A DNA stretch of 64,000 nucleotides from contig JBCAQO010000005.1 of assembly GCA_039111635.1 (NCBI GenBank), forward strand, positions 806,001 through 870,000. The letters are read 5' to 3'. The translations under genes and the position numbers were made by a program. The notes under the pieces were generated by a model. The model ran no database searches. It was not told where the DNA came from and was given only the letters and a program-made list of their open reading frames with translations. Positions 1-60,388 of the stretch are shown here, one piece after another (positions within the stretch are counted from its first letter, which is position 1; every line of letters begins with the position of its first letter). This stretch comes from Heterobasidion occidentale (lineage: Eukaryota > Basidiomycota > Agaricomycetes > Russulales > Bondarzewiaceae).

Positions 1-76
1 AACAGCTGGGCACGGTGACTGTACAGCCCGAACAAACGTCCCACGATCCAACAATCCCTATTCTCACACGGACGTC

Positions 77-3000
77 ATGACTTTCCATCCCGTAAGGGCT
101 CCACTTCTTCGCTATGCGGCTCCTCGTCCGTCCTCATCAGCCCCTCTAGTTCGAGGTCTCCATACCTCATGTCGCATACGCTGTATTGGGCGGCTTCGTC
201 GTGTTTGTGCGTCTCCCGCTCTCCTCGCTCGCGCCCTGTCCGTTCGCTCAATTCACCCGACGGCCCAGTTTGGAATGTTTTCCCTCTTCATCAGAGAAAA
301 GGTGTGCCCTCTCGCCGCCATTTCCAATCCTCGTCCGTGCTCACCTCTTCCAGCTCTACATCGGCGAAGCCTGCTGGGCATTTTTATTCGGCGTTATTAT
401 CGGTGCGCTCCTCTTTTCCCCTTGGCACGTCTGGCCACAGGGCCACAGACTGAATGTGTCATCTGAACATATCCTTCTCTCATGTTCGATCAGGACCGTA
501 CGGCGCGGGCATATTCGACCCTAGAGGCTGGGGCAACGGCAGCGAGCAGGTCACCAACACGATCACCCTCGAGTTCACCCGCGTCGTCCTCGCCATCGGA
601 GTCTTCGCCATCGGCGTCGAGCTCCCAAAAGCCTACATGGCACGCCACTGGAAATCCCTCTTCTTCCTCCTCGTCCCCGTCATGACCTGGGTGCGCCCCA
701 CCTTCCTCCTTCTCTGCTTCGTCGCTGTTTCCATCTGCTCTCGCTGATGCATCGAAACCAAACAGGGCTGGTTTGTATCAGCCGGCCTCATCTACGCCCT
801 CATCCCGAAGCTCAACTTCCTCTCGTCTCTAGCGGTCGCCGCGTGCCTCACCCCGACGGACCCCATCCTCGCCGCGGCCGTCGTCGGCGGCAAATACGCT
901 GACAAGCACGTCCCCGCCCACTTGAGGCACCTCCTGGCCGCCGAGTCTGGGTGCAACGACGGCGCTGCGTTCCCGTTCCTCTACATCTCCCTCTACCTCA
1001 TCATGGACAGGACCACCGCCCGCGCGGTCGAAGACTGGTTCCTCATTCTCTGGCTCTGTGCGTGCGCATCGGTGCTGGCTGCTCTTCAGCGTTGTTGATT
1101 TCGTTAATGTTGTTGTCGTTGTCGTCATCGTCGTTTGACGTGCCGTGCGTGCGCGCGCGCTAGATCAAATCGTGCTCGGCACCGTGTGGGGCGCGATGCT
1201 CGGCTTCGGCTTCCGCCACCTGATGAAGTTCTGCGAGCGCAAGGACCTCATCGACCGGCAGTCCTACGTCGCGCAGTACGTCTCGCTCGCGCTGCTCACC
1301 ATCGGCACGACGACGATGCTCGGCTCGGACGACCTCCTCGCCGCGTTCTCGTGCGGGACCGCGTTCGCGTGGGACGGCTTCTTCAACAAGCAGACCGAGC
1401 AGGCCGTGTTCTCGTCCGTGATCGACCTGCTCTTCAACGTCGCCGCGTTCGTGTTCGTCGGCGCGTGGACGCCGTTCACGCAGTTCGATAACCCGGAGCT
1501 GTCGCTCTCCGTCTGGCGCCTCGTCGTGATCGCGATCCTGGTGCTGTTGCTCCGGCGGCTGCCCGCGATCATCGCGCTGTACAAGTGGATACCGGACGTC
1601 AAGAGCCTGCGGGAGGCCGTCTTCAGCGGGCACTTTGGCCCCATGGGCATCGGTGCGTCGTCTGCCCCCTCTTTCTTTTTTTTACACCTATCCGCAGCCT
1701 GCGTATGTGCGTCCCCCGTTCTGACGTCCGTCCGTCCCCACTCTCCAGGCGCCGTCTTCATCTCCACCCTCGCCGCCGAGACGCTCGCGGGCGCGGGCGC
1801 GGCGGCGGACTCGCAGACGGGCCTCCTGGCCGAGTCGATCCAGCCGATCGTCGCGTTCATGGTCGTCACCTCGATCGTCATCCACGGGCTCTCGATCCCG
1901 TTCTTCTCGCTCGGGCGGCGCGTGCACTCGGTCTCGCGCACGTGGTCGCGCCACGTCAACGACGCGGACGCGCCAGAGTGGACGACGCACACGCGCGCGG
2001 TCCTGCGCGGCGAGGACATCGTCATCAACCGCGACGCGGCGGACCCCCACCACCAGCACGCGCACGTGGACGCGATGGAGCGCGGGGAACTGGGCTCGGG
2101 CTCGGATGAGAAGTCGGCGACGGCGGGGGAGGCGACGCCGCCGCGCCGCGACGAGGAGAGCGACGAGACGAAGGAGGGCTCGCCTGCGGAGGAGCGGTAC
2201 AAGGCGGAGAACGCGCCCGATGGGAACGATGTCCTGCAGGAGTGGAAGGAGGGCCCGCATCGCGTGATCGAGCGGCGCGCGGGGCCGGGCGAGGAGGTGC
2301 GCGCGTTCATCCGCTCTGTCTCTTCTTCGCGTAGAGGGCTCACGGTTTCGTGTCGTCTAGGTCGAGGTCGAGGTGCAGAGGAACGTCTATGGGCCCAGCG
2401 ACGTCGAGCGCATCACGCGCGCGTTCCACGGGCAGGACGCGCACCACGCCGCGCACGCCTTCCTCGGCGGGCTCGAGCGCGCGGGGAGCAAGATCGAGGA
2501 CACGGCGGCGCACGCGGCGCACGAGACGGAGGAGGCGGCCGCGCGCGCGGCAGACGCCGTCGTGCCCGGGCACGAGCACGAGCAAGAGCACGAGCGGCAC
2601 GACGCACACGACGCGCACGACGCGCACGCAAGGGACGAGGAGGAGGGCTGGGCGTCGGACCGCAGCGCGGCGGAGGCGCCGGGCCCGCGCCGCCGCGCGA
2701 AGGGCAAGAAGAAGCCGGCGGCGCGCAAGAAGGGCCGCGCGTTCTTCAGCGCGCGCGCGCAGCCCCCGGCGGGGCCTGTAGATCCCGCGCGAGGCGACGA
2801 TGATCACGACGACGATCGCGACGATGACGATAACGATAACGACCAAGGTGGTGCTGGTGCTGGTGGTGGTGGTGGTGGTGGTGTGAGGGGCGGTGAGGGC
2901 GGTGGGGTCGTACACGTGCAGCCGGGCTCGTCGCCGGAAGACGAGCCGCGCGGACGGCGCCCGCCGCTCTCGTCCGTCGTCGGTGCGGGCGCGGGCTCGG

Positions 3001-3335
3001 ACTCGTACGCGCGCCGGCGGGCGTCGCACCTGCGGATCGAGTCGCTGCGGGGGCTCGGGAGCGGCGGCGTTGGCGGCGGGCGCACGGTGCGCGAGGCGTC
3101 GCCCGCGCGGTCGGTGCGGTTCGCAGATGAGCGCGCGGGCTCGGGGTCGGGGTCGACGGGGGCGCTGACGCCGCGCGGGCGGGGGTCGTTTTCGGTGCCG
3201 GGGAGCCAGGTGCCGTCGGACGACGAGGACGCGGGGTATAGCACCGGGGGTGGCGGGGGTGGTGGTGGTGGAGGCGGGGAGGCTGCGGAGTCGCCGCGGA
3301 ATCGGGTGACGTTCGAGTTGCCGGATAGAGATTGA
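77..3335 (+). CDS. NHA1: Na+/H+ antiporter, fungal Nha1/Sod2 type (CPA1 family)
   Basis: Plasma-membrane antiporter exporting Na+ or K+ in exchange for H+. Exons I place: 77-91, 150-206, 269-301, 354-402, 494-690, 766-1057, 1164-1652, 1749-2296 and 2361-3335, giving 884 residues. The start at 77 is chosen because the 5-codon first exon splices in frame to FEVSIPHVAYAVLGG, the conserved N terminus of the family. Seen further on: LYIGEA, the TPTDPILA loop, and AESGCNDG, which carries the Asn-Asp ion-site pair of this transporter class. The membrane domain ends near residue 450. The roughly 450-residue cytoplasmic tail is low complexity: Glu/His repeats, a Lys/Arg block, a run of Asp/Asn and two poly-Gly runs. 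Long tails are normal for fungal Nha1, where they regulate salt response. Six of the eight introns begin GTGCG or GTGTG. Identification is firm; the tail composition is poorly conserved. Confidence 0.93.
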
Positions 3336-4020
3336 TCGATGAGGAGTGGCCGAGGGGGGCCAGAGACTGGCCAGAGCCGAGGACTGTTCCGTATCTGATT
3401 CGTGCGCGCACCTGCACGTCCATTTTCTTCTTCGTTCTCGTTCTCGTTCTCGTCCTCGCTGTCTTTCTTTTCCGTCTCCATTTCTTTTTGTGTTTCGCTT
3501 TGGTTCTTTTCTTTTCTTTTTTCTGCTTTTTTCTGCTGTTCGGTTCTGTGCTCCAATCTCATCGCGTCCGGTTTATGATTGATTTGCTCGAGAGCCTGTG
3601 TATCGCTGAAACATGTGTCCGCGCGTAGAACATACCTGTATCTGTGTCTCTGTTCGGCTGTTTGGGGTCGTCGTACTTAAGGCGGGCGAGGAGGGGAGGC
3701 GAGGTCCAGCAGAACGATAGTAGTGTAGATGATAATTGGATCGCTTGGCCCGCGTTGCATAGATATACGCCTTTTGTTACCTGCTGGCCGGCTGCTTCGC
3801 CACCAGGCATGATCTAACTCTAGCTTGATTCGACACATTCGGGAGCGGGTTGGGCCCGCGGAGGCACGACACATCACACGGATACGATATCGGAGCGCGC
3901 GGCAAGCCGCCTCGAGAACTGTATGCTCCGGAGGACAGAGTTCCTCGAGAGTGGTGTCCCGATGATGCAATCCAAAAGTGCGTCGACCTTGGACTCTCAA
4001 AGGATTGTGAACGCAGTATC
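3336..4020. other. Convergent intergenic region
   Basis: The 3' end of the antiporter gene faces the 3' end of the DUF6533 gene here. The first 220 bases after the antiporter stop are pyrimidine-rich (CTTTT/CGTTCT runs around 3421-3545), as expected for a 3' untranslated region. I see no third gene. Confidence 0.5.
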
Positions 4021-6560: not shown

Positions 6561-7087
6561 TCAGATGCTCAAGACGGGAGTGAGTATGAGGAAGCAGTTC
6601 TGCCAGCAATGCAGTTTGATTGGTGTCGTGGTCGTTCGGTGGGCCGTTTGTAAATCTGATCTGTAAAGCTGTCGTCTGTCGTATGGAAGTATCTCCTCAT
6701 GGCCAAGGCTCTGAAGACATGAGAGATCGAGCGCCTGGTGGCAAGGCAAGGCAAGAATCATACCGCTCTAGATGGGTTGATCCCGGTTTGGAGAATTCTG
6801 AGCTGATTCAAGTGACTGTGAACCAGCACTGAGCAGATCAAACATGGATGCTTGATAATCGGGTGGATACTCATGCGGAACAGCTGCATGACGAGACAAA
6901 AGAGGCAAGTATGCGTGCTCGTAGCTATGTAAAATGTTGAAACTTGAAGCTTGAAGTAGTGGACGAGGTTGAGACGTGAATGAACGCGTGAGCGTCCGAG
7001 GCGGTTCGGAGGATTTGCACACTTACGCTTATGTCATCGACACAGATGGCATGGATTGGCGCCGATGATGCTCTTGCTTAGCGTTCT

Positions 7088-7093
7088 TATAAG
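7088..7093 (+). promoter_or_regulatory. TATA box of FAD oxidoreductase copy 1
   Basis: TATAAG lies 40-45 bp upstream of the ATG at 7133. The inverted paralogue has TATATAAG at almost the same distance, which supports a conserved core promoter and a short 5' leader. Confidence 0.55.
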
Positions 7094-7132
7094 GCAGAAC
7101 GTGCAGCTGAACATGCAGAACTCACTAGCACC

Positions 7133-8652
7133 ATGGCATCCATCGCAGACCTCCAACTTCAAGGATCCGTTCTGACGCCTTCTGACGAAGGGTATGAGGC
7201 GTCTCTTCATCGTGTTTCCGACCTCACGGTCCGACGCGCGGCATACGTCGCATTCCCCACATCTTTCGACGACGTCCCGAAGCTGATTAACTTCGCACGC
7301 ACAAACTCGCTCGACATCGCGATCAAGGGCGGTGGACACACGACGAACGATTCGGGCGCGTCGTCATCCGAGGGCGGGCTCGTAATCGATATGGCCAAGT
7401 TGAACAAGGTGACGGTGCAGGAGAACGGCACGGTCATAGTGCAGGGCGGAGCGAATTGGGGAGAGGTGTACGAAGAGGCGGCAAAACATAAGGTGGATGT
7501 GGTAGGAGGTGATGTGTGTAGCGTTGGTGTTGGCGGTTTCTTGTCGGGCGGAGGGTATTCAAATTTGAGCGGACAGCACGGACTGGGCAGCGATAATATC
7601 ATCCAGGCTACTGTAGCCCTCGCTGACGGACGGATAGTGACAGCGAGCCCTACAGAAGAGCCTGAGCTTTTTTGGGCGATTCAAGGTGAGTAGCGGATTT
7701 AAATGCATCAGATGTGTCTGGATTGACCGGATGCTATTCATAGGTGGTCAGAGTCAGTTTGGCGTGTTATTGCAATTCACCCTGCGCACGTACCCAACAC
7801 AAGGACCTGCCTTCGCTGGCCCCCTAGTCTTCCCAGGAACCGCCTTTGAGGCGTTCGTCCCTGTCCTTGAGGAGTATATCTCGAAGATGGAGCCTCAGGA
7901 CCATCTGATCGTTGAGTTTAGCCGCGCACCCCCTCATTTTTACGTGAGTACGCCAAATGTTGTTGAGTACATGCACTCAATTTTTTATAGCCCGGTCTTG
8001 TTGTTCTCCCGTATCTGCCCGGGCCTCCTTCTCGTGCTGAAGCTGCTCTCAAATCCTTCCGCTCCCTCAACCCTATCGTCGATTTTGTTCACCCTGTTCC
8101 AACACAATTCGAAGCGTCTCACGGAGGCGATGAAATTCTGGCGCGCGCTCCGAAGCGTCAGTACCTTGGTGGATCGCAGCTGAACGATACTTCCGTGGGA
8201 CTTGACAAGAAACTGTTTGCTCAGATGTGGGGCGCGTTTGTGAAGTTTACGGAGGATCATCCCGATGGAAAGGGGAATATCTTCATGTGGCAGTGGCAGC
8301 CAGTCGGGGTCGTCAAGAACAGAAAGCCTGATGAGACGGCTTTTTCGAAGCGCAGCAGCGTCAGCTATGTCCTAGTCCATGGACGGTACGTCCCTTTGAG
8401 ATTGAGCCTCCTCTTTCATCCTAAACATCTCGCAGGCATCATGTTCCAGAATTTGATCAGACGAATATTGCGTGGGTGCGCGAGACGATTGGCATAATCC
8501 GCGACAAGCACCCCAAAGGAGGCGCCATCCCAAACTTCGCTTGCGGTGATGAGTCACCTGAGGTCATGTATGGTGATAATGCGAAGAGATTGAAGAGTAT
8601 CAAAGCAAAATATGACCCTGAAGGTTTCTGGAAGAAGGGGATAAAGATCTGA
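7133..8652 (+). CDS. FAD-linked oxidoreductase, berberine-bridge type, copy 1
   Basis: Flavoprotein oxidase/dehydrogenase of the FAD_binding_4 plus BBE family; substrate unknown. Exons 7133-7685, 7744-7943, 7991-8385 and 8436-8652 give 454 residues, with no signal peptide. Seen: the FAD (PCMH-type) domain in the first 200 residues with AIKGGGHTTNDSG, whose His corresponds to the usual 8-alpha-histidyl FAD linkage, then VGVGGFLSGGG and FWAIQGG. The C-terminal BBE block is KYDPEGFWKKGI. The second linkage residue of bicovalent members (Cys in CPxVG) is Val here; a nearby Cys is one place off. It is divergent from DUF6533 copy A. A mobile element is inserted 232 bp past the stop. It is paralogous to the gene at 15109-16720 with the same splice sites. 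Confidence 0.9.
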
Positions 8653-8883: not shown

Positions 8884-9090
8884 TATGGCAACAGGGACTG
8901 GACTGCTCATTTTGCAATCGGATGCCGCGCTTTGACATAAGCGGCATGGCATATGACCCCAGAAACCCTCGTTTAAATATTTATAATTAAAATTTCAACT
9001 TTCAGCACCAGTAAATGTACCAGCCAGGTCTGAAATTCCATAAGTGAGGTATGGAATAATACTAGCAAGGTATAAGTACTAGAGATTGGA
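8884..9090 (+). repeat. Left terminal inverted repeat
   Basis: About 200 bp matching the reverse complement of 10737-10942, with a handful of mostly transition differences. It contains its own hairpin: ATGCCGC and GCGGCAT flank a 12 bp loop (8922-8947). Confidence 0.85.
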
Positions 9091-9315
9091 GAAAGCAACT
9101 GCCTAAGTAATATTGTGCTTCTATCACTTGTAAACACTCATGCTTATATGAAGAAATAAACATTATATTGAGAATAAGGACAAGGGTCAACTCTATGCCC
9201 TTTGGTGGTTGGCTAGAGGAGGGCAAATAGAATGATCAAAAGTGTCTTGTCTGTGATATTAATGTTGAGTACACTCAGCAGGTCAGAAGGAATGGGCATT
9301 AGCATAGTGGCTATT

Positions 9316-9735
9316 ATAACTTGACCTGTTGGGACTCTGCAGAGTCAGTCTATCTGACGGTCCAAGCATCACATGCTAGGCGGCTCCGCTCCGGAGCATA
9401 CATCAAGGTATTTGGCATGTTCTTAGGAGCCGACTGGTCCGATAGTTCTCTAAGACATTGGAAGAGGATAAATGACAGGGTCATAGGTATAGCGGCTTAG
9501 TAAGATAGGCATTCACATGCCATGGGCTTCAGGCATATGAGCAAGCACCTCGTCGCACCTGGATAGATTGGTGCGACTGGAGAAGTACAAGAGTGGGCAC
9601 TGACTGAGAGAGACGGCAACCCACACTCTTCTGGGATGGGAACCTAGAGAAGCATACAGACTCTTACCCTATGCCCTATACAGTATATAAGGCCCATACA
9701 ATAGGCTGAGGAACTTCAGTCTACTCTCTTCATTC
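9316..9735 (+). repeat. Inner inverted arm, left (LTR-like)
   Basis: Pairs with 9906-10335. From 9327 it begins TGTTGGGA, and a TATATAAGG box lies near 9690. Continuing to 9795, the unit would end TAACA. TG...CA ends plus an internal TATA box suggest a retrotransposon long terminal repeat of about 470 bp, with the right arm a truncated copy in opposite orientation. No gag/pol or primer-binding site is visible. The LTR reading is an inference. Confidence 0.55.
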
Positions 9736-9905
9736 ATTCACAGTCTTCACACTGTGGATGTTATGAACTGCTCGTTCGGTAACCCAAGAGTAACAGGTTC
9801 TTCCCTAGGTCGCATGAAGGACTGAGTAGATGAGGGAGTCTTGACTGTATTAGAAGATGTAATACAGGAGTAGTTGCAGTGGTCCTACTGTAGGAAGACA
9901 ATGGC

Positions 9906-10335
9906 AAACAAAGAGAATAGACTGAAGTTCCTCAGCCTATTCTATAGGCCTTATATACTGTATAGGGTGTAGGGTAAGAGTCCGTATGCTTCTCTAGGTT
10001 CCCATCCCAGAAGAGCGTGGGTTGCCGTCTCTCTCAGTCAGTGCCCACTCTTGTACTTCTCCAGTCGCACCAATCTATCCAGGTGCGACGAGGTGCTTGC
10101 TCATATGCCCTAAGCCCATGGCATGTGAATGCCTATCTCACTAAGCCGCTCTGTCTATGACCCTGTCATTTATCCTCTTCCAATGTCTTGAAGAACCATT
10201 GGACCAGTTGGCTCCTAAGGACATGCCAAATACCTTGATGTGTGCTCCGGAGTGGAGCTACCTAGCATGTGATGCTTGGACCATCGGATAGACTGACCCT
10301 GCAGGGTCCCGACAGGTCAAGTCATAACAGTAAGT
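9906..10335 (-). repeat. Inner inverted arm, right (LTR-like)
   Basis: Reverse complement of the left arm, with its outer end TGTCGGGA at 10314 and a TATATAAGG box near 9955. It differs from the left arm at roughly one base in fifteen by eye, mostly by transitions. Confidence 0.6.
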
Positions 10336-10736
10336 ACGTAAATGTTCATGTGTTAGCATGTCAATGACAATAAGTCAAAAACAAGTCTAGGTTCAAGTCA
10401 CAGCTGAAGCACTTGACTGACCTCCTAGCTTATGTGCAAAGCACATGTTAGAACATGGTCATCACAATGACTAGATATAAAGCCAATATAATAATAATAA
10501 TAATAATAATAAACCTACCAGTTGTTTTGTACTGCTCAGTATATAAAGGCATGACCATTGCCATTCCTAGCCTTTGTGCTGCCCAGCACTCACTCAGCCA
10601 TACATAGCTGAATATACCCTGCCCCATTGGGTATACTAGCTTGTACATAGATGCCCCAGCCCTTTCAAAAAATACATAGCTAGCATTTGCACAAATAACA
10701 CTTCTTGGGCTATGGTGCACACTCACCAGTCACTGC

Positions 10737-10942
10737 CAATATCTATATTTCATACCTTGCTAGTATTATTCCATACCTCACTTGTGGAATTCCAGACCTG
10801 GCTGGTGCATTTACTGGTTCTAAAAGTTGAAATTTCAATTATAAATATTCGAACGAGGGGTTTCTGGGGTCATATGCCATGCCGCTTATGTCAAAGCGCG
10901 GCATCCGATTGCAAAATGAGCAGTCCAGTCCCTGTTGCCATA
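10737..10942 (-). repeat. Right terminal inverted repeat
   Basis: Mirror of 8884-9090. The outermost 90 bases are essentially identical to the left copy. Confidence 0.85.
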
Positions 10943-12304: not shown

Positions 12305-14638
12305 ATGGGTCCTGGGTTCTCTGGTCTTGTCGTGTCTCTCATCCTTGGCACACAACTCTGCTTTGCTACACTATATACCGATCCATCCCAGCTCCCTCGA
12401 AAAGATTATGACTACATCGTCGTCGGAGGTAAGTACGTTGCGATTAGTTCAGATATATCCGGGCTCACAATTTTTCAGCGGGTGCCGGCGGAGCTGTTGT
12501 TGCTAATCGTCTGTCCGAGGATCCCAAGGTTCAAGTCCTGCTTCTCGAGGCTGGCGCGAAGTGAGTAAGATTGATATTGCTTGTATATTCGATTGACTAA
12601 ACTTGTCGCAGCTCTGCGGGCTTAGAGAATTTTGCCATTCCATTCTTTGATGTGCAGCTCTCGCCAAACAAGGAACACAACTGGAACTTCACTACCACCA
12701 AGCAAGTTGGTTTGGCCAATCGTGCTATCAATTACCCACGAGGCAAGATTCTAGGCGGCTCAACGTCTATAAGTGAGTAGCTGCGTCTTTTTTACCTGCT
12801 TCTACGAATTCTTATATGACTGTACAGATTACATGATCTACTCGCGTGGATCAGTCGACGACTTTGACCGGTATGCAAATATCACTGGTGACGGTGGTTG
12901 GAGCTGGAACGCTCTCCAGCCTTATATCAAGAAGGTGAATCGTCTCAAATCATGTCTGTCTCGTCTGTTCACCTCGAAAAATTGCGTTCCATGTAGCACG
13001 AACGAGTGGTCCCACCAGCAGACGGTCACAACACCACCGGGCAGATTGATATGTCCGCTCATGGTACGTCAGGGCCTTTGGGGGTTTCATTGCCCGGATG
13101 GCCATTGGGTATCGACAGCATGGTCATGGAGACGACCAAACAGCTACCGGAGGAGTTTCCATTTAGTCAGGACACGAACGCCGGGACCGCGCTTGGTATC
13201 GGTGAGTAGAAGTTTTTCTTGCCCGTTTATTTTATGCTTCTAACCAATGCACACTTCAGGTTGGACACAGAACATGGTGGAGAAAGGACAGCGCGTCAGC
13301 TCCTCGACTGGTTACATCCAACCTTACCTCAAGAGGTCAAACTTCGATGTCTTGATCAATACGCAGGCGACGAAGCTCATCCAGGCAGGCACTGAGCGTG
13401 GTATACCTTCATTCCGTGGAGTCCAATTCGCAATCTCCAAGGATGGTAAGTCTGTTTGAAATCCATCCGTACAGTGCCAGATGCTGAATTAAATTGGTAG
13501 CACCCCTCTACGCCCGGAACGCCACCAAGGAACTCATCCTTTCAGGCGGTGTCTTCGGTACTCCACAGCTTCTCATGCTGTCTGGAATCGGTCCTTCCGC
13601 CGACCTCGCCTCTCTCAAGATTCCTACGGTTGTCGACAGTCCAGATGTTGGCAAGCATCTCGTTGACCATCCCCTCTTGTCAAATGTCTACGAGGTCAAC
13701 CCTGTCGGAAGCGTCACTACCGATGATCTGGTACAGAATGCCACTTTTGCGGCGCAGCAATTGGATCTGTGGCGTACTCAGAAGAAGGGTTTCTACACGA
13801 TGGCTATCTCGAATCACATCGGCTGGTTTAGATTGCCCAAGAATGCATCCATTTTCCAAACTGAGACAGACCCCGCTGCCGGTCCCCGCTCGAGTCATTA
13901 CGAGTTTTTGATATTCGTGAGTGGTGATTGCACTTGAGATCCTTTCGCATGGCTAATAATACGCCCATAGAATGGCTTTGTGTCCCCCAATGGTGATTTC
14001 GTGCAATCGGGTCACTACTTGTCCATGATCACCTCGGTCACTTCTCCGTCCTCCCGTATGTTGACAATTTGATTTGTGTTTCCCTGTCTAGCCGAGACTG
14101 AGATAACTCGTTCTGTAGGCGGCACTGTGACGCTCGCTTCCGCATCACCTTGGGATCTTCCCATCGCCAATCCCGGGATCTTGAGCTCTGCGTTCGACAA
14201 ATTTACTATCCGTGAATCCATCAAGGCGACGAAGCGAATGGTGGCTGCACCCGCCTGGGCAAACTATGTCTTAGGGCCATATGGAGATCTTGCCACAGCT
14301 GAAACCGATGCCGAGCTCGACGCATACGCCGCCAAGAACACTGCCAGCTTCAATCATCCTCTCGGCACGGTAGCTATGGGTCCATTTGGTCCTCCTGCAT
14401 ATGGAAAGGGAGCGGTTAACCCGGATTTGACGGTGAAGGGAGTGAGAGGTTTGCGTGTTGTTGATGGCAGTATTCTGGTAAGTCCGCTGCATGTGAGAGG
14501 CAATGTTGTAGCGTCTCATCGACAAACCCCTTTTCGCAGCCTGCAATTCCAGCAGCTGCACCCCAGGCTGCTATCTACATAATGGCAGAACGCGCCGCGG
14601 ATCTAATCAAGATTGCCAACAGGCAACGACACCCTTAA
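12305..14638 (+). CDS. Secreted GMC oxidoreductase, aryl-alcohol-oxidase-like
   Basis: FAD-dependent alcohol oxidase/dehydrogenase of the glucose-methanol-choline family, probably extracellular. Ten exons (12305-12428, 12479-12560, 12612-12772, 12828-12934, 12997-13201, 13260-13445, 13501-13916, 13971-14055, 14119-14477, 14540-14638) give 607 residues. Residues 1-21 form a signal peptide. Then [13 protein letters not shown] (dinucleotide fold), [27 protein letters not shown] (GMC signature 1), [18 protein letters not shown] (signature 2) and [12 protein letters not shown] with the catalytic His. Where aryl-alcohol oxidases carry a second active-site His (AHTQ-like, near the C terminus), this protein has AAAPQAA, so the partner residue seems to be lost. 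The start has a good Kozak context (CCGCCATGG). It lies between the mobile element and FAD oxidoreductase copy 2, with which it converges. Confidence 0.9.
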
Positions 14639-15108: not shown

Positions 15109-16720
15109 CTAGATATCGACACCCTTCTTCCAAACACCGCGAGGATCATACCTAGCTTTGACTTCCTTGAGCCTCTTGGCGTTCTCAGGGCCAAACAATA
15201 CTTCAGCAGGCTCGTCGCCGTAGGCGAAGTTAGGGATAGCGCCTCCGTCGGGCTGCTTTGAGCGGATGGCGTCAACGGTCTCGCGCACCCACCCGATATT
15301 TGCCTTGTCAAACTCAGGAACGCGAGTTCTGTGGATTTTGGCACGACACAAAAGGATGTTACGATCAATGAGGTAAACAAGTGAGTATTGACAAGTAACT
15401 CACCTGCCATGAATCACAACGTAGCTCACAGTGTCGCGTTTTGAGAACGCAGACGCGCTCGGACTCTTGTCCTTCACGACGCCGACAGGTTGGAACTCAA
15501 ACATGACCATAGACTCCTTTGCCTCCTCGTGCTCGGTGGTCCACTTGACCCAGCGCCCCCACACATCGGCGAACAGCTCGCGGGAGTAGCCCGCAGGACC
15601 ACCGTGAAGTAGCGAGCCCGCGAGGTATACGCGACGGGGCGCGTTCGCCATAAATGCATCCGAGCCGTGCGAGACGGTGAACTGGTCCGGCGCAGCCTGG
15701 ATCATGTCGACGATGGGGCTAAGCGCGCGGAACGGCTTGAGGAAGACCTCAGCGCGCGAGGCGGGTCCTGGTATGTATGGAAGAATGAGGACCCCGGGCT
15801 GTTGGGTTGTTAGCCATTGATGGAACAATGCTTCGCGATGACATGGCGCACGTAAAAATCAGGAGGAGCACGGCTGAATGCGACGATGATGCGATCTTGC
15901 GGTTCGATCAAGGGAGCACATTCCTACACGTGTACAAAGTCAATGCTTGTCGTGAAGTCCAAGAAGGAGAGATGAATACCTCCAAAGCTGCCAAGACACC
16001 GTCAAACGCTGTACCAGGCAGTACGACTGCTCCAACGTTGGCAGGGCCTTGGGTAGGATAGGCACGGAGCACGAATTCAAGTACAACACCAAACCGACTG
16101 GTCCCACCTGTCGATATTTTAAGTCAACTAGAACGCCGGGGAGGGAAGAAGAAGAGACACTTGCCTTGGATGGCCCAAAACAAATCGGGTTCTTGATTTG
16201 GGCTTGCTTTCACGATCCGCCCATCGGCGAGCGCCACTGTAACCTCGACAATATTGTCGCTCCCCAGCCCGCGAACCGCACTGAGGTTCGAATGTCCTCC
16301 ACCTGTCAAGAAACCTCCAACTCCGACACTCCATACGTTCCCTCCAACCACGTCGACTTGATGTTTTGCAGCTTCCTGGTACACATCGCCCCAAAGCGCG
16401 CCGCCTTGCACGACGACCTCTTGTCGGTTTGATCGTACCTCTACCTTGTTGAGCTTGGCAAGGTCGATCACAAGTCCACCCTCAGAGGAAGATGCCCCGG
16501 TGTCATTTATGTTGCTCCCACCCCCTTTGATGGCGAGTTCAAGACGGTTAGCGAGCGCGAAGGCGATGAGCTTCGGCACGTCGGCATACGAGGTGGGGAG
16601 CCCGACGTATGCTGCTTTTCTAATGGCTAGATCGGTGCTACGGTGGATTGCAGCAGTATAGCCCTCATCCGCGGGAGTGAGGATGGTGCCTTCGAGTTTG
16701 AGATCGCTGAGGGTAGCCAT
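15109..16720 (-). CDS. FAD-linked oxidoreductase, berberine-bridge type, copy 2
   Basis: Inverted paralogue of the gene at 7133. Exons 16165-16720, 15980-16107, 15852-15923, 15404-15798 and 15109-15328 give 456 residues. Three splice sites match copy 1 exactly; an extra 56 bp intron (15924-15979) splits what is one exon in copy 1. The first intron appears to start with GC (CAAG|gcaagt), because only that donor restores FWAIQGGTSRFG. The flavin-linkage position reads AIKGGGSNINDTG: the linkage His of copy 1 is Ser. The other FAD-domain landmarks (VGVGGFLTGGGHSNLS, LGSDN) and the C-terminal YDPRGVWKKGV remain. The enzyme may therefore bind FAD without a covalent bond. It is divergent from DUF6533 copy B. 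Confidence 0.88.
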
Positions 16721-16758
16721 GATGTGTATCAGTGGGAGAACGCATATGTCGAAGGGGT

Positions 16759-16766
16759 CTTATATA
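16759..16766 (-). promoter_or_regulatory. TATA box of FAD oxidoreductase copy 2
   Basis: Minus-strand TATATAAG lies 39-46 bp upstream of the ATG at 16720, mirroring the spacing in copy 1. Confidence 0.55.
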
Positions 16767-21568: not shown

Positions 21569-22630
21569 ATGCCGCGCGCTGAAGGTGAGTTCAATTTATG
21601 GTATTGCTGCTCAACTAACAATGCTTTACTGTAGTCGGAACCCCGAAATACTTGGCAAACAAGATGAAGTCGAAGGGCTTGCAGCGCCTTCGATGGTATT
21701 GCCAAGTGTGCGAGAAACAATGTCGAGATGAGAATGGTTTCAAGTGCCATGCTGCATCCGAGGCTCATTTGCGGCAGATGCTTGTCGTTGGAGAGAATGC
21801 TGGACGCCACATCTCTGATTTCTCCGGCCAGTTTCAGTCTGAGTTTGTTACTCTCCTGTCGAGACGGTACGTCCATGTAGTCCTTCGTCATCTCATACGA
21901 AAGTTTTCATCGCATATACCATGGATACAGATTTGGCACTAAACGAGTGAGAGCCAATCAAGTGTACCAGGAGTACATCCAGGACAAGCACCATCTGCAC
22001 ATGAACTCCACGCGCTGGGTCACACTCACCGAGTTCGCGAAACATCTAGGGCGGACAGGAGTCGCGCGAGTGGATGAGACAGAGAAGGGTTGGTTCATTT
22101 CGTGGATCGACAATAGTCCGAAAGCGCTCGCGAAGCAGGAGGCATCGATGAAGAAAGAGCGTGCAACAATGAGCGACGAGGCGCGTGAGCGTATGTTGAT
22201 CGAGGAGCAAATAGAACGTGCGGCGCAGGAGGGGGAGGGCAATGGAGAACGCAAATCGGCTTCGCCCCCCGTGGAGGAAGGTTTGAAGCGGGAGGAAGGG
22301 GAGAAGGTCGTGCTGTCGTTTGGAGCTAAATCGCCGACATCAACAGTGTCGACATCGGAATCTAACACTCCATCGGGCGGGCTGAAGTTGAACGCCTTCA
22401 AACCTGCCGTCAACCCTCTCAAGATAGGCGCAAATCCCCTGAAGGCAGGCGCGAACCCACTCAAGCGGCCAAACGTTTTCAAACAGGCGACTCCGAGCCA
22501 GGTATCTTCGGACGATAAGTCGAGCATGAAGAGAAAGGACACGCCCATGTCGGCTGCTGAGAGGCTGATTTTGGAGGACCAGAATCGCAAGCGTCGAAAG
22601 ATGGAGCAAGAAGGGGTGTCGGCCGCCTAA
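21569..22630 (+). CDS. kin17: DNA/RNA-binding protein KIN17
   Basis: Nuclear nucleic-acid-binding protein linked to DNA replication/repair and splicing. Exons 21569-21584, 21635-21866 and 21931-22630 give 315 residues. Seen: MPRAEVGTPKYLANKMKSKG at the N terminus, a C2H2 zinc finger (WYCQVCEKQC with HAASEAH, near residues 27-50), and the winged-helix-like KIN17 core (VYQEYIQDKHHLHMNSTRW, GWFISWIDNSPKALAKQEA). The C-terminal 120 residues are low complexity with three NPLK repeats. The KOW/SH3-like C-terminal domain of animal KIN17 is absent, which is usual for fungal forms. Confidence 0.94.
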
Positions 22631-22913: not shown

Positions 22914-24018
22914 ATGCTAGACTCAGGTCCCACTGTCGAAATTCACCCCATACGAGACATACGCACCCGCGATGATCATGGACAGCCCATACCAGTCTCC
23001 GTCAATTACTTCCCCCACCGCCAATGCAATTATGCTTGCAAATTCTGCTTCCACACCGCGCTCTCCTCCAACAAGCTCAAGCTCGAGAAGGCCCAGGAGG
23101 GCCTTCGCTTGCTAAAGGACGCGGGCATGTAGCGTCTGAATATCTCGGGTGGGGAGCCATTCCTCCATCCCGAGTTCTTGGGCAAGCTGTTTCGCTATGC
23201 GAAGGTGGAGCTTGGTGTCGACACCGGCGTCATCTGTAACGGGTCGAAGGTCACTGATCAGTGGCTAGACAAATATGGCCAGTACCTGGATTGGATGGGT
23301 GTTTCGTGTGACTCGTTCAACGAGGACACGAACGAGCTTATTGGGCGCCGCGATGGCAGCAAGCGCCATGGGGAGCACTGGCGTCGCGTGCAGAGGATTG
23401 CTGAATATTGTCACGCCCGGACGCCACCCCTCAAGTTCAAAATGAACACAGTAGTAAATCGCTACAATGTTGAGGAGGACATGAACTTTGCACTGGAGGT
23501 GCTGAAGCCGCAGCGCTGGAAGGTGAGTATCTCTCTGAGACGGTCTCCTTTCGTTGCATACTATTCCCGCACCGACACTTGTATTAGGTTTTCCAAGTGC
23601 TTCTGCTTGAAGGCGAGAATACGGGCCCAGGCGCCCTGCGGAACGCCGATGACCTCGTCATCTCCAATGATGAATTCCAAGGATTCCTCGAACATCACAA
23701 GGCGCACGATCCCGTCGCCGAGGACAACGACGCGATGGAAAATTCATATCTACTCCTTGACGAGGAAATGCGGTACACATCCTTGCCATCTCTTCTCCCT
23801 TAATGTCTAACCCCTTGCACTCTCCCCACGAATATTACAGGTTTCTCAACTGCCAAGGTGGAAAGAAGATACCGGGCCGAAGCATTTTCGAAGTCGGCGT
23901 GCACGCCGCGCTCGCAGGCGCTGGCTGGGAGCCCGAGACTTTCGAAGATCGCGGTGGTATCTATGACTTTGGCGGACAAGAGCCTCCTCATCCGCTGCCA
24001 GAAGCGCTTGTATTCTAA
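22914..24018 (+). pseudogene. Viperin-like radical SAM gene with one in-frame amber codon
   Basis: Homologue of viperin, the radical S-adenosylmethionine enzyme that in animals and prokaryotes makes 3'-deoxy-3',4'-didehydro nucleotides with antiviral effect. Exons 22914-23522, 23588-23772 and 23841-24018 sum to 324 codons. Seen: the 4Fe-4S motif CNYACKFC, the SAM-binding NISGGEPFLHPEF, MNTVVNRYNVEEDM, LLLEGENTGPGALRNADDL and the hallmark SYLLLDEEMRFLNC. A single TAG at 23130-23132 interrupts the first exon between DAGM and RLNISGGEP; everything else is open and correctly spliced. No GT...AG intron could remove it without removing the cluster motif. The start ATG at 22914 gives a short N terminus without the ER-binding helix of animal viperin. 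The last residue is Phe, whereas animal viperin ends in Trp. It could be a recent null allele, a base-call error or a read-through site. Confidence 0.85.
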
Positions 24019-24768
24019 GGATCGACGGAAAGACTTCGAAGTGCATGACTTACAACTGAAGGATAAGAGGTGGCTAAGAACATCGGGCTCCCTTTCAGAA
24101 CTGGGCTCAATAGCTTGAAGCTTGGGTTAGGACCTGCATACGAATTGGTGGGTGAAGCAGGAAAGGCGCGGCGTGCTGCATTATACCCACATACTCGTGT
24201 GCACGACATAACAAATGGTTCTATCGGAAGGGCCTGCTCATGAATTGTCGTGAAGTCAATACTCAATCTTCTGCAGCCGGGCATGATGCATGCTCGTGCC
24301 GCTGTCAGATAAGACCAAAGAGCAAATCTCCCCATGAGGACTAGAGTGCGAACATCCTGATTTCTCCGGTTTCAGAAGCTCATACCACTTTTTGAGTTGA
24401 TGATTCCATTTGCCGGCACGACCGATGACAAGAATCAGGATACCACCTATCCTGGGATGGAAGCTATTTTCTTGCTCGATGTAAAACAGATAGATGTAAT
24501 GGATTGAATCAATGTCAACTGAAGCGAATACACCGCGCCCGCCATATTGCATTGTTGTTGGATGATCCTCGAAACACATATACAAACAACTATGTGATGC
24601 TCTATCTAATAGTATACGGAATGTGCATATGGCTCAGCTTCGTCTTGCACCACAACACCCTTGACTGCTTTCAATTTCTCTCTTTCGCAATGAGCATCGA
24701 TTAATCTCCCAATAGTAGCATCCTCCCTAACAAGCTCAGCTAATTGATGTAACGATATACATCGAGAC
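24019..24768. other. Intergenic region without a recognised gene
   Basis: Short open frames only; none shows family motifs. Confidence 0.4.
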
Positions 24769-25965
24769 TCACCATGTCCGCAACTGATCTGAACACGAAG
24801 CTGCGGCCCAGAAATGACACGTTTGCTCCTTCAGAGATGAAGTAATAGTATGAAATAGACCGCGGTCGACGAGATACTCATATCGCACGACGGGGTAGTC
24901 AGAGCGGCCTATCGAGAACCCTTCCACCAACTCGAAATTGTGGTCGGGGCATTTGATCAACTTCCAACTATTGTAAACCATGGGATCCCAAGCGAAATAG
25001 TCTGATGTAGGAGACAAGCGTGGACGTGGCTGGAGATCGCTGGTATCTAACGGGACTATCCACGTATGTCGGTCACGGACCAACGGGTAACGCCGCAGTG
25101 GAACGGTGCTCCTCCAGTCCTTTTCTCTTGCGGCGGAGCGATGAAGATGAGCTGCCATCCTCTGCTTCGATACTTTGCAAACTCAGCCTCCCTGTCGTTG
25201 CGAGAGGCCATGCCTAGAGACACCCTCTCTTCAAAGGTAGCCTGCGGGTATATACTGTACGCTGCATCAAACGCGATGCAGTTCATGACACAAGCTGACC
25301 GAGAATTTCAAGAAGTTTGGAAGCTGGCATACATTACAAGTAAGATTGCAACTCACTGCTGTGGAAGCTCAGTATCGTGACCAGAGGACTACGGGCAGCG
25401 GCAACAATCTGGACCTTGAGTGGGCCGTTGGGTCCATTTCGAGTGAAGCTGTATACTTCAAGAGATTGTGGGCCATAATCACTGTCGTCATCCCATCGAG
25501 TGCTTGATCTAGACGATCCGACCATGTGAGCCTTATCCGGCTGGCCACACCAAAAATTTTGTCCTGATCCCGGCTCGGTGCAAACGAGTATCCCTCATGT
25601 TCCATTAACCAGTGCCCAACCTCTTCGACGCTATCTTCCCATACATATAGGTCCAGATCTGATTCAGGATAAAAGGTTGAATCGAGGAATTGAAGTGCGT
25701 TGGAGCCAGAGATGAGAATTGCAAGACGAGCCTGCATGTTGCGGAATGCGATGGGATCATTGAAGAAGTGTCTGAGGTGACGATTGATGTTGAACGCCCT
25801 GGAGTGGAAGTCCTGCACGCTGTTGTACGCGAGACGACATGTGCGGCCAAAGCGGATGCGGGCGCCAGGGCTCAGTCGGGAGTATATTCCATCGTAGATA
25901 GGATGCCTCGTTAAGATGGAAGGGAGCGACGACACGCGTCCTGGGTCCCTTTCTGCGCAGTCCAT
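24769..25965 (-). pseudogene. F-box/nucleotidyltransferase-like gene, frameshifted copy
   Basis: Paralogue of the intact gene at 27075-28268, transcribed away from it. The start at 25965 (MDCAERDPGR) matches the intact copy. The N-terminal F-box-like helices (LSPGARIRFGRTCRLAYNSV) and SGSNALQFLDSTFY...SDLDLYV are preserved. The frame then breaks twice. Around 25500-25560 the reading passes to another frame without a usable splice site. Near 25083 one base is missing relative to the other copy (TTGGTCC against TTGGGTC), shifting out of frame before DRHTWIVPLDTSDLQPRPRL. Both copies end TW-TGA. Similarity extends into the 5' leader. Confidence 0.75.
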
Positions 25966-27074
25966 ATTGGCGCTGATGAGTGAACGTCAGTTCCGAGTCC
26001 ATCATCCATCATGCGGTTGAAACACAAAGCACGCACCTTGATGAGAGAACGAAGATTGTGGCCGAGCTCTCGTTGTTGGTGCGGAGACGAGGAGGAGGGG
26101 AGAATACGGAATGAGTGCGAGGTCAATCAGATAAGGGAGAATGAGGGTGAGTGGTCAATTTTCGAAGTCAGCTTTTTCTTCTCTTATATTTCGAAAGACT
26201 GTTAAGACCAAACATGTCAAACGCGCTGCGAGTCGTGTGAAGCCAGCTGCGCGACAGGGTCTTCGGGGCGCGGGGATGTTCTAGCAAGGGGCGTCATATG
26301 ACGATGCCAACGCGACACGGCGTCAAGCGGCTTGAATGCTGGCACTTAGTGGCCAAAAGAAAATGGAGATGTTGTTGATTTTTGAGTCTCCTGTGAACGA
26401 AAAAATTGGAGAATCCGTAAAGCCTCGTGAGGCTTTGATCCACATGAAGCATTAAAGCGCACACACCATACAGCATAGATATCGTGGCAGATCTCCCCAA
26501 TATATGGAGTGATTGACTGTATCTTGCAATACGCACATAGCTTGCTACCCGATGCTCGGATTGCTTCACAGCCAATCCAGAGGGCACTTGATCAACGTCA
26601 CATTTAGAAATGAGTCCATGACGATTGCGAGGTAGATGATAGAGTGTGGGTTTGAGGACCCGCGGTCATATCTATGACTTCCGATGAAGTTCTGAACGAG
26701 GGGTGGTTGTTGTTCTAAGTGCCGCTCGATCGTGGAGGCGTGGGAGTCGCTGGGGGTCGGAGGGGATGTATTTGAAAATAGAGGAATCAACACTTCGAAT
26801 ACACCACTTGTCCTTTTTCTAACCTCAAGCTTTGCATCTGAAGCTGAAGCGCTTGAAGCGCTGAAGCTTGAAAGTTGTCGACTTGCGTCCAAGCCGCAGT
26901 ATCCTCATTTGGGTGTTGCTTTTTCCGGAAACTCAAACCATGCCTTCACCAAATCCTTCCTCCATCGCCCTTCGTACCAACGTAGGCAATGGGTTCTCTT
27001 AAACCATCAAGGTGCGTGCTTATGTTCTAACTGCATGTCAGATTCAGAACTGACGTTCACTAATAAGTGCCAAT
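25966..27074. other. Intergenic space between head-to-head paralogues
   Basis: The first 50-60 bases upstream of each ATG are similar (an overlapping open frame reading GLRRKGPRT in both), so the duplication included the leader. The middle has no recognised gene; an open frame at 26566-26892 on the minus strand is Ser-rich at its start and unsupported. Confidence 0.45.
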
Positions 27075-28268
27075 ATGGATTGCGCAGAAAGGGACCTAGG
27101 ACGCACGTCGTCACTCCTTTCCATTTTATCGAGACATCCTATCTATGATGGAATATACTCCCGGCTTAGCCCTGGTGCTCGTATTCGTTTTGGCCGCACA
27201 TGTCGTCTCGCGTACAAAAGTGTGCAGGACTTCCACTCCAGAGCGTTTAACATCAATCGTCACCTCAGGCGCTTCTTCAATGACCCCATCGCATTCCGCA
27301 ACATGCAGGCTCGTCTTGCAATGTTCATCTCTGGTTCGAACGCACTCCAGTTCCTCGATTCGACATTCTATTCCGAATCAGATCTGGACCTATATGTTTC
27401 GTACGACAGCGCTAAAGAGGTTGAGCAGTGGTTAATAGAGCACGAAGGATACTCTTATGCGCCGAGCAAGCAAATGGAGCACGAAGGATACCCTTCTGCA
27501 CCGAGCAATTGGAAGGCTGATGAATATGCGTTCGCATCAATTGCTGTAGTCGATAATTTCACCAAGGATGGACCTGACGGCCCACTCACCGTTCAGGTCG
27601 TTGCCACGGTCATTAATCCTCTGGAGGCGATACTCAACTTTCACAGCAGTGAGTTACAACCAGATCTGTAATACACGAAAAGATTTACAACTTTTTTGGA
27701 TTTTCGGTCAGCCTGTGTCATGAACTGCATCGCGTTCGATGCGGCGTATAGCTTATACCCGCAAGCTACTTTTGAACAGAGGCTATCTCTAGGCATTGCC
27801 TCTCGCAATGATAGGACGGCCCAGTTCACGAAGTATCGAAATAGAGGATGGCAGCTCATCTTAATCACTCCGCCGCAAGAGAAAAAGGCTAGAGGAGCAC
27901 CGTTTCACGGCGATGTCATCCGTTGGGTCTGTGACCGTCATTCGTGGGTAGTCCCGCTGGACACCAGCGATCTCCAGCCACGCCCGCGCCTGTCTCCAAC
28001 ATCAGAGTATTTCCCTTGGGATCCCGTGATTTACAATAGCTGGAAGCTGGTTGAGCAGCTGGTTCCAGGCATCATGGGCTCGTTCCATATGACGCCAGGG
28101 GCTGCTATAGGCCATCGTGGCTACGGTTCCGTCATGCGATATGAATATCTTGTCTTCGACGGTGGTCTATTCCAGACTGTCACTTCGTTTCTGAAGCAGC
28201 AAATGCACGAGCGATCCGAGGCCGAGCGCAGCTCTTCTGCCAAGCAGAAGGAGCTGTCCACATGGTGA
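27075..28268 (+). CDS. F-box/nucleotidyltransferase-like protein, intact copy
   Basis: Member of an agaricomycete family annotated only as hypothetical. Exons 27075-27648 and 27712-28268 give 376 residues. Residues 15-45 resemble an F-box-like helical segment (LSPGARIRFGRTCRLAYKSV). Residues 80-105 read ISGSNALQFLDSTFY then SDLDLYV, the GS...DxD pattern of the DNA-polymerase-beta-like nucleotidyltransferase fold. The third acidic strand residue is not evident: the matching strand reads LTVQVVATV. The C-terminal half has FHSTCVMNCIAFDAAYSLYP and YRNRGWQL, both typical of this family. An internal repeat is visible around residue 125 (EHEGYSYAPS, then EHEGYPSAPS). Catalytic activity is uncertain. 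The pair with 24769-25965 arose by inverted duplication. Confidence 0.78.
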
Positions 28269-29045
28269 GTTCTGGTGTAAAACAAAACATCATCTGGCTA
28301 AGCAGTTTGTTAGGTGTGATGCCGCTATCGGGAGATTGATTGACGCTCACCGCGCAAAAGAGATACAGACGTAGGAGAAAGAGAGAATAGGCTGCAACGT
28401 AAAAACGTGTGTACAGTGTAGCCAAAGCATCACATCGCTATTTGCCCTCTTATATGTCAGAGGCCAGTCAAACAGGGAAAGCTCAACCTTCATAGCAGTG
28501 CAGTGGCATGTACTTCAGTCGACATCGATTTAGGTGATGTCTACCAGCACTACACCTATACTGCTTCACATCGAGCTAAAGATAGCTTCCACCCGAGTAC
28601 ACCATGTACCCTCTTTGTAGGACATTCATTTTTCGTGTACTTTAACATTTCGTGCCACTCCGGAACCAGATTCGATATCTATCCTCCGCATCAGCCACGA
28701 CAGTGCAGTCGGCCTCCTGCGGCAGTAGACATGAGCGATCGGCATGCCACAAAATTTGGGTGATTGGGGATAAGTAATTCGATCCTGAGTTGAATGAAGT
28801 TCCACTGGGCGCAATTACTAACGTCAATTCAAACAGCTTCATCTACCATGTCGAAGACATATCTTTCACCCAAAGCAGCCAAAACAATGGAGAACTCATA
28901 CGTTGCCAAAGTTGATTCCTGGTAACATATCCGACATGAAGTTCCGGCTATAATATATCAGTCGTTCCGCGACCCGGTTCAAATCTGCGTGATTTTTGTT
29001 CGAGACAACCTTGGTCTTGACGCTTGTTTGCAGGCTACCACCATC
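28269..29045. other. Intergenic region without a recognised gene
   Basis: No supported coding stretch. Confidence 0.4.
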
Positions 29046-53733: not shown

Positions 53734-56464
53734 CTGCCTCCCCACTTCACAATGCAGCGCCGTCCGCTCCAAGCTTCACGTGCACGTAACTGAGCTATTC
53801 ACTCGGACATCATCTCGACGCCCCAGGACCGTGCCCTCCCACGAGTCGACGCGCGACTTACGTCTGCATCAGCGCGTACACAGTCGCACACACGCGCACA
53901 CACGCTTTTAATTAAGCCCTCGCCCTTCACGTACACAGCCCTGTCACACAATGCATAATATAGGCCCCCGCGCGCCCAGCCCAGCCGCCCATCTGAGTCA
54001 GGTACTACGCACGCCCCGCCATCAGCGAAGCAAAAAGACGCGTTCGCGGTCAGTGAGCCTTAGTCACGCGAATCAGAGGGCTCGGAACTGTGCGGGTGAG
54101 TGAGTAAGTCGGTCGATCGACGGGTCGACGTCGCGCTCGGGGGCTCGAGTCCGTTCGTCCGTGAGTGACAGCACGCGGCGTCGCCGCGCATCGCAGGCGC
54201 AAGGGGATACGGAGCAACGGAACCACGGAAACGCCACCGGAGCGGTAGCCACAGGAGACGAAGAAACAAAGTGTGGCTTGTTGATAGGGGGTCGCCGCGC
54301 AGGCTTCTCAGAAGTATGCTCGCACATACGCACCTCGCTTAGCGTCCACGCCCCACCAGGACTCCCACGCACGCCGCCCGGCGAGTGTGGCGTCTCGCCA
54401 CCGCGCGCGCGGACACCGGTGAGATCGACGAGAAGTGGGAGGTCAGTAAGCACTGCGTGGGGTGATGCGACGCGACACGATACGAGGCTTACAGCACCAC
54501 GGACACGGGCGCGCGGGCGAGATGAACGCCGGGAGATTAATTGGCAAAAGAACTCCAACGGACGGACGGGCGCGCGGGCGGGCGGGGCAGAAGTCCGGGG
54601 CACCGAAAGCGAGTTGGCGATCGCACTGCGCGTGCGTGCGTGCGTGTGAGCTCGCATTGCACGTAATGGCGTGCAGCTGATCGTAACCAGAGCCGGTGGG
54701 GGACGAGACACCCTGAGACACCACGCATTGCGTTGTGCGTACTCACATGTCGGTCCCATTAGACAATCGTCCTCGAACTGGGTCCAGCTGGCGCTGCCGA
54801 CCGTAAGCTATCCCATATCGACAGGGCCTCGCGGACAGTCCAATCGGCCCCTATGTAGTATACATTCAGCCGCGATGGACGTTCGATCCAGCTCACAGCG
54901 AGCCCAACTGCATATGACACGGCATCATCAGCCTAGCCACACATACACACACACACACGAACCGATTCCTGATCCCCGTCCTGCGATAGCCTGCGCTTCG
55001 CAGCGTGCAGCGAGCTAGCAAGAAGGCGCCGAGGAAGGAAACCCGCAGGGCCAGCCAGCCAGCCAGCGTCGTCGCGCGAGCCAGTGAGATACCGACCCGC
55101 GACGCCGGCGCAGAACGTGCACGTGCACGCCATATCCCATATATGTCATTACTTCGCTGCGATCGGGGGGCCAGCAGCGGGTCCGCGCGCTCGGCACGGC
55201 CGGTGCACGCGGAGGCTTTCGTGGGCGCAGCGCGGGGAGGGGGTGCAAATGCCGGACGGGATTGGAGGGAGAGCACAGAGCAGAGAAACGGCGCGGGTCC
55301 GTGCGTGCGTGCGTCGTCTCTCGAGTCATGGGCCTAGAGAGACGCGCGCGCGTGGGAGCGTGGGTGGAGGCGGGCGCATGGAAGCCACGGCTGCCGCAGG
55401 ATTGCGACGGCGGCACGCAAGCAAGCAAAAGCGGCGGTCGCGGCGAACCCGCTGCAAGAACGCGTCACCGTCCGAACCCTGTCGCGGTTCGGCGCCTCGA
55501 CCCGCGCCTCCTCCTCCTTCGTCTCGGTCTTCGTCATCGTGTTCGTCGTGTTCGGCACCGCGTCGGCATCGGCACGCCCATATCCAGTCGGACGTGAGAG
55601 GCGTGTCTGCACCCGTGTCGTTTTGGCATGGCATGAGCTCGCGCAGAGACGGACACAGACACAGACACATACATGGACGTAGACACAGACGCAGACACAA
55701 GACGCAGACGCAGACATAGCAGACATAGACACAGACATGCGATGCAACGTAACGCACAAACGTGGGCGCAAGCCTCGCCCCGCTTCGAAAACGGCGGGCT
55801 CGCAGAGGTCGCCCAATTGGGATGCCGCAGGCGAAGTGCTGGTGGAGGTAGTGCCGGTGCTGCAGCTGGCAAAGCGACGCCTCGCATTCACGCAGGAAGA
55901 AGGCTGAATAAGGCCAGAAGAAGAGGCCCGGACGCGCCCTTCGTACGAACATGGCTGTCTCATACCCACCACCGGCCAGCCCAAGTAGAATCGAAATCGG
56001 AATCGGAAATCGGAATCGGAACAGGGATCGGATTAGGCAGAGGCATCGAATAAGAATAGGCATACGCAAAGATGGGCATAGACTCAGACATAGATAGGAT
56101 TTGGAATAGGTGTAGAGGCGGCGGCCAGAAGAACGCAAGAGATGACGGTGCGGCGACAAGACGCGACAGGCGGACGACAGGACGACAGGTAGCCGGAGGG
56201 AGGGAGAGAAGCGGAAGCGGAGGGGCCTCCACGGCGAGATGTGCCAGGAAGCTAGCGCAGAAGCGCTGTCGAGGGCGGGCAGGCGGATGCACGGCCAGCC
56301 AGCCAGCAAGCAAGCAGCTGAATCAAACGAGCGGGCACGGCGCCTGATATATATATATATTGATTTCTTTGATTTTTCGATTTTTCTCTTGATCCCGCGT
56401 ACGAATGCATCGTACTCGGCGGGCGGCTCTCGAGCTACGGTAGCGGACGGGCGGATGCGACGCG

Positions 56465-56476
56465 CAGATCGATCTG
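56465..56476. promoter_or_regulatory. Perfect 12 bp palindrome, copy 1
   Basis: CAGATCGATCTG followed by GCGCC. The same palindrome recurs at 56711 and 56820. Candidate binding site for a dimeric regulator, about 2.2 kb upstream of the Zn2Cys6 start codon; function is inference. Confidence 0.4.
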
Positions 56477-56710
56477 GCGCCAAGCAAAAAACTAAGCACA
56501 AAGTTGGCGGCGACGCTACACGCGCGATCCAGATAATGATACCCCATGGTGCCCCGCACCGCACCGCGCTATGCCTGATGGATCATGCCTCCATCATTGC
56601 ATATCCTCCTGCGCGCGCTCAGCGCGCAGATCTCGCCGTCCCTGCCGCGCTCTGGCGCTTTGGCGCTGCTGTTGGTGGCGGTGGGGGCTGGTGGGTGGGG
56701 GCGACGTGCG

Positions 56711-56722
56711 CAGATCGATCTG
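56711..56722. promoter_or_regulatory. Perfect 12 bp palindrome, copy 2
   Basis: CAGATCGATCTG with GTGCG before and GCGC after, as in copy 1. About 35-40 bp downstream, both copies also share AAAGTTGGCGGCG, so part of this is an old tandem duplication. Confidence 0.4.
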
Positions 56723-56819
56723 GCGCTAACGCTAACGCCAAGGGCAAAGCAAGTAAGCGCAAAGTTGGCGGCGGGCGGCGACGCTGTTCGGCGATGCGAT
56801 GGGGGTACGTGAGGGTGCC

Positions 56820-56831
56820 CAGATCGATCTG
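56820..56831. promoter_or_regulatory. Perfect 12 bp palindrome, copy 3
   Basis: CAGATCGATCTG followed by GCGG. Upstream flank differs from copies 1 and 2, so the palindrome is kept while its surroundings are not. Confidence 0.4.
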
Positions 56832-58088: not shown

Positions 58089-58109
58089 GGGGGGGGGGGG
58101 GGGGGGGGG
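58089..58109 (+). repeat. Poly-G run
   Basis: 21 consecutive G. Such runs are length-unstable and error-prone in assemblies. Confidence 0.9.

Positions 58110-60354: not shown

Positions 60355-60388
<34 letters not shown>

Follow-up and report, generated by a model that had tools for sequence, protein, structure and literature searches.

A single in-frame TAG in a KIN17-linked viperin gene of Heterobasidion occidentale, probably a recent nonsense mutation

Gene model and viperin identity

A viperin-like gene of Heterobasidion occidentale, of three exons with a single internal stop, raises the question of whether that stop is a real nonsense mutation, an error, or a codon that is spliced out or recoded. 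The gene lies at 22914-24018 (+) of the window, by which we mean the whole 64,000-nucleotide stretch of DNA analysed (contig C5, 806001-870000, in an assembly of 45.05 Mb and 159 contigs). Exon 1 (22914..23522, +) begins with the ATG at 22914 and holds the CNYACKFC and SGGEP motifs; it is followed by a GT-AG intron of 65 nt (23523..23587, +), exon 2 (23588..23772, +), a second GT-AG intron of 68 nt (23773..23840, +) and exon 3 (23841..24018, +), which closes with a normal terminal stop, TAA. The exons sum to 972 nt, a multiple of three that gives 323 codons plus the terminal stop. The internal stop is a TAG at 23130-23132 (+), codon 73, in the context ATG-TAG-CGT. It falls between CNYACKFC, which starts at residue 38 and provides the CxxxCxxC radical-SAM cluster motif, and SGGEP, which starts at residue 78, five codons downstream of the stop. 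The gene coordinates, the in-frame sum of the three exons and the position and context of the TAG had been given by an earlier sequence-only reading and were confirmed when the sequence was read again. In a genome search with the gene DNA, only one copy of the stop-bearing region was found in the assembly.

The window protein was scored with an X at codon 73. It reached 244.5 bits with the NCBIfam model NF038283, above the cut-off of 180, and 227.1 bits with the PADLOC model pVip, and it matched PDB 5vsl at 1e-90 over residues 24-308, spanning the stop. With the NCBIfam viperin model TIGR04278 it scored 337.3 bits, below the cut-off of 450 for that model. The model and structure matches are beyond chance and, judged by them, the frame is a real gene. 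Viperins have an aromatic C-terminus that resembles a CIA-recognition end. Among the best 120 of 1118 matches in a protein collection, W or F is the last residue in 108 of 119 homologues, and 90 of 119 fit the pattern [LIM][DES][WF]; the window protein and its closest relative end in LVF. The identity proposed from the letters alone was thus borne out by NF038283, pVip and PDB 5vsl, and by the tree of viperin homologues described below. On these grounds the gene is best classed as a viperin of the radical-SAM ddhNTP synthase type, belonging to a KIN17-linked Agaricomycete clade.

The closest relative and the extent of decay

The search of the protein collection with the window viperin returned 1118 matches, the best 120 of which were listed. 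The closest of those listed, P0001, is 97% identical, 323 residues long, ungapped and uninterrupted, and has nine member sequences. Besides the stop column, where P0001 has a residue and no gap, it differs from the window protein at ten residues. That P0001 is a full-length protein on a 2459-base contig suggests that its source is a transcript assembly, and since it is uninterrupted, intact copies of the gene exist. The next best homologues among the 120 come from Amylostereum, Dentipellis and Artomyces at 66-68%, followed by other fungi and animals at lower values. Bondarzewia, Amylostereum, Dentipellis and Artomyces are members of the Russulales.

The stop is not shared. P0001 and all the other listed homologues (119/119) have a residue at column 73; in these 119, from the best 120 of 1118 matches, eight kinds of residue occur there, with no Trp and no gap. 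Predicted-protein collections are biased towards intact forms, and this comparison has to be read accordingly. The best 120 of 1118 matches included no truncated close relative, and the 72-residue piece before the stop, used as a query, gave no stop-bearing candidate in the same collection; being made of predicted proteins, it could miss one in either case.

Outside codon 73 the protein is little changed. There are 85 columns at which at least 95% of the 119 homologues agree, and the window protein departs from them at three (74, 239 and 308). The departures at 74 and 308 are common to the window and the uninterrupted P0001, and only that at 239 is the window's own; since two of the three also occur in P0001, the decay of the window viperin is slight. 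The shared changes are K to R at residue 74, in exon 1, and W to F at residue 308, in exon 3, at columns where all 119 other listed homologues (best 120 of 1118) agree. By this comparison, change in the lineage of the window and P0001 may predate the stop.

When derived changes were counted against five outgroups, the ratios of window to P0001 were 4:1, 3:0, 2:2, 1:2 and 3:1. These counts disagree between outgroups, so they give no independent sign of relaxed constraint on the window branch. The end branches of the viperin tree measure 0.028 for the window and 0.0091 for P0001, and those of the KIN17 tree 0.022 for the window and 0.021 for P0121, P0001 and P0121 being possibly from different organisms. 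Relaxed constraint is not claimed here: the branch lengths differ, but the derived-change counts flip with the outgroup. Taken together, the protein comparisons fit a very recent stop, with no visible relaxation before it. The sequence-only reading had offered a very recent loss, an allele or an error, and the intact relative at 97%, with no clear decay elsewhere in the protein, supports that range.

A second viperin, two clades and the KIN17 neighbour

The genome search with the gene DNA found one further place, a diverged viperin on contig C12 with 66% identity over about 320 bases. Read by its evident splice sites, one GC-AG intron included, this paralog gives a 948-nt reading of five exons and 315 residues without an internal stop. 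The GC-AG intron, at 1947-2010 of locus L003, is needed to keep the frame as read. The C12 paralog, which the sequence-only reading had not noticed, looks intact, so that a loss of the window gene would not be a loss of all viperin.

A tree of 48 rows was built from 46 of the 120 listed homologues, the window protein and the C12 paralog, with two vertebrate RSAD2 proteins as outgroup and no non-viperin rows. The window and P0001, on a stem of length 0.52, fall inside an Agaricomycete clade of 11 rows (support 100/95) together with Dentipellis, Amylostereum, Artomyces, Volvariella, Pluteus, Agrocybe, Hypsizygus, Lyophyllum and Collybia. The C12 paralog belongs to the other group, which has 34 rows, all fungal (support 99/89). 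The root of this tree is insecure because the outgroup joins at the long branch of Rhizophlyctis.

The gene just upstream of the window viperin is KIN17, recognised in a stop-to-stop frame with the last large exon at 21881..22630 (+) by PF10357 (WH_KIN17, 1.2e-39). Its best relatives, P0121 among them, are 95% identical, followed by Bondarzewia mesenterica at 75% and Dentipellis at 74 and 73%. Linkage to KIN17, another feature that the sequence-only reading had not noticed, was scored by eye from contigs of equal length in the two lists, and shows a common contig rather than adjacency. Viperin and KIN17 share a contig in five of the six other clade species found in both best-120 lists: Dentipellis sp. 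KUC8613 (P0003), Artomyces (P0004), Hypsizygus (P0006), Pluteus (P0013) and Collybia nuda (P0029). The sixth, Agrocybe pediades, is entered in the viperin list under another record than in the KIN17 list. For the other viperin group we counted the tree proteins whose species also appear in the KIN17 list, and none of 11 proteins (10 species) lies on a KIN17 contig, some of them coming perhaps from different assemblies. The shared contig supports vertical descent of the window viperin near KIN17. The tree and the linkage point to two old viperin clades in the Agaricomycetes, one of them linked to KIN17.

The rest of the window has features of its own. Downstream of the viperin gene, 24677-26043 and 27005-28363 form an inverted duplication of about 1.4 kb and 75% identity. 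Each arm has a long open frame beginning RSLISANMDCAERD, and the frames that were tested (25372-25986, -, and 27672-28265, +) matched no Pfam family at E 0.001. Nested inverted repeats with arms of 420 and about 207 bases and 93-94% identity occupy 8884-10942 and are perhaps a recent inverted insertion or element. Two opposed FAD_binding_4 frames flank a GMC oxidoreductase C-terminal frame (7082-7690, +; 14073-14579, +; 16127-16759, -). The ends of the window (1-4000 and 54001-64000) have a GC content of 58-70% versus about 47-60% elsewhere, and carry long overlapping frames on both strands.

Readings of the TAG

The wholly intact remaining frame and the existence of P0001 are also what one would see if the TAG were a base-calling or assembly error in an ordinary intact viperin gene. 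We hold this to be unlikely. The contigs of this assembly (45.05 Mb, 159 contigs) are of megabase size, so it was probably built from long reads, and the residual errors of long reads are mostly indels and less often substitutions. Still less credible, to the point of being negligible, is the removal of the TAG by a non-canonical intron. Within exon 1 we listed the in-frame introns, 40-250 nt long and with GT-AG or GC-AG ends, whose excision would take out the TAG and keep the exon open; there were 65 candidates, 17 GT-AG and 48 GC-AG. None of the 17 GT-AG introns within exon 1 keeps both CNYACKFC and SGGEP, and the claim that no splicing can rescue the frame holds for that class. Two of the 48 GC-AG introns, both ending at the TAG, do keep the two motifs, and the C12 paralog appears to use one GC-AG intron; against this, they would cost the protein 14 or 25 codons, which seven aligned relatives have and which include residues invariant in an alignment of eight rows. 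Their donor hexamers, GCGCTC and GCCCAG, do not resemble strong sites.

The UAG might also be read, by readthrough, a suppressor tRNA or RNA editing, to give a conditional full-length viperin. We regard this as very improbable, and as highly doubtful the more specific idea of a programmed UAG switch in a basidiomycete antiviral-type gene, with full-length viperin made only in the sexual stage, under stress or in virus infection. The reading frame past the stop is conserved, as either would have it, and the base after the stop is C. For editing there is a U before the A of the UAG, and a 6-bp hairpin carries that A in its loop, which is the setting preferred by A-to-I editing in Fusarium, where 62.4% of sites fall in hairpin loops (PMC11156358, PMC4817773); the 100 nt surrounding the UAG also give a better fold than 198 of 200 shuffled versions (z -2.60). 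Yet such hairpins are common by chance, which makes this one unremarkable: 320 of the 1054 UAGs on both strands of the window (30%) have their A in a predicted hairpin loop, and 4.2% of the 1054 in one with at least 6 pairs, and in 2000 synonymous recodings the figures were 44% and 8.5%. Editing would yield Trp, which 0 of 119 homologues have at column 73 (best 120 of 1118). Ame1 orthologs are reported in Agaricomycetes in a part of PMC11087585 that nevertheless has the editing role of Ame1 evolve in Sordariomycetes, and PMC11156358 states that, for the basidiomycetes it names, a more careful analysis detected no A-to-I editing. A 2020 review (PMC7306014) mentions several kinds of editing reported in Polyporales, warns of allele artefacts in dikaryons and, in the passage concerned, gives premature-stop correction as not reported in that order; PMC10532568 has RNA editing in Coprinopsis cinerea as its subject. 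A-to-I editing was set aside: the hairpin looked striking, but the base rates and the papers on re-examined basidiomycetes speak against it. As to readthrough, the Ustilago motif is UGA CU, with reduced readthrough at UAG according to a portion of PMC4207609, and the window stop, UAG CGU, does not match that leaky context. A search for CUA anticodons by pattern yielded 31 matches against 63 in a backward control, and ARAGORN, run with the bacterial code, called no CUA tRNA in these 31 loci (Val(aac) 7, Cys(aca) 1, nothing 23). This is a weak scan of the genome for a suppressor: intron-bearing or odd tRNAs would be missed because the pattern requires the T-loop to follow soon after the anticodon, and although the companion CUG pattern gave 104 matches versus 41 in the backward control, ARAGORN was run on just two of the 104 and called each a Leu tRNA, which leaves the scan with no example of a recovered Gln tRNA. 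With a motif that does not match, no CUA tRNA called and a hairpin of a common kind, the read-through that the sequence-only reading had suggested found little support.

We therefore favour, with a probability of about 0.83, a real nonsense mutation, either a null allele or a fixed loss (a very young pseudogene), in a partly redundant gene. The KIN17-linked viperin would recently have gained the nonsense mutation, and translation would stop after 72 residues, with the cluster-binding cysteines kept and the rest of the barrel missing. The transcript would probably be degraded by nonsense-mediated decay, since the first intron does not begin until 390 nt after the stop. This would leave a null allele or a very young pseudogene, and the C12 viperin probably buffers the function. 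Loss of function, mRNA decay, recency and buffering by C12 are what we infer from the gene model and its relatives, and no full-length enzyme (ddhNTP synthase) is predicted from the window gene. The data also allow an intact/null polymorphism of the KIN17-linked viperin that the population maintains and that dikaryons mask. An ordinary loss, now under way in a gene that has a paralog, is the likeliest cause. A literature search joining viperin and basidiomycete gave no match. In a part of PMC10732462, the patchy eukaryotic distribution of such immune proteins is ascribed to ongoing, repeated loss; the window locus may capture the very beginning of such a loss, the fungus still having its other viperin. 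It is otherwise an ordinary observation, a single stop codon in one assembly.

Among known systems, the Fusarium genes of the PUK1 type, which undergo premature-stop correction, share with the window gene an in-frame UAG whose A follows a U and is predicted to lie in a hairpin loop. The window gene differs from them in belonging to a basidiomycete, in that editing is only a candidate and in that such hairpins are common there by chance. The window protein matches the viperin structure PDB 5vsl (viperin/RSAD2) and the viperin-like 7n7h and 7n7i, in alignments that start at residue 24, 25 or 26 and end at 308 or 309; unlike these, it has a stop at codon 73 and the C-terminus LVF. The KIN17-linked viperins of Dentipellis, Artomyces, Hypsizygus, Pluteus and Collybia nuda belong to its clade, but they are uninterrupted proteins. 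P0001 is the nearest parallel, like the window protein in its 323 residues, its ungapped alignment, its departures at 74 and 308 and its C-terminal LVF, and unlike it in having a residue at position 73.
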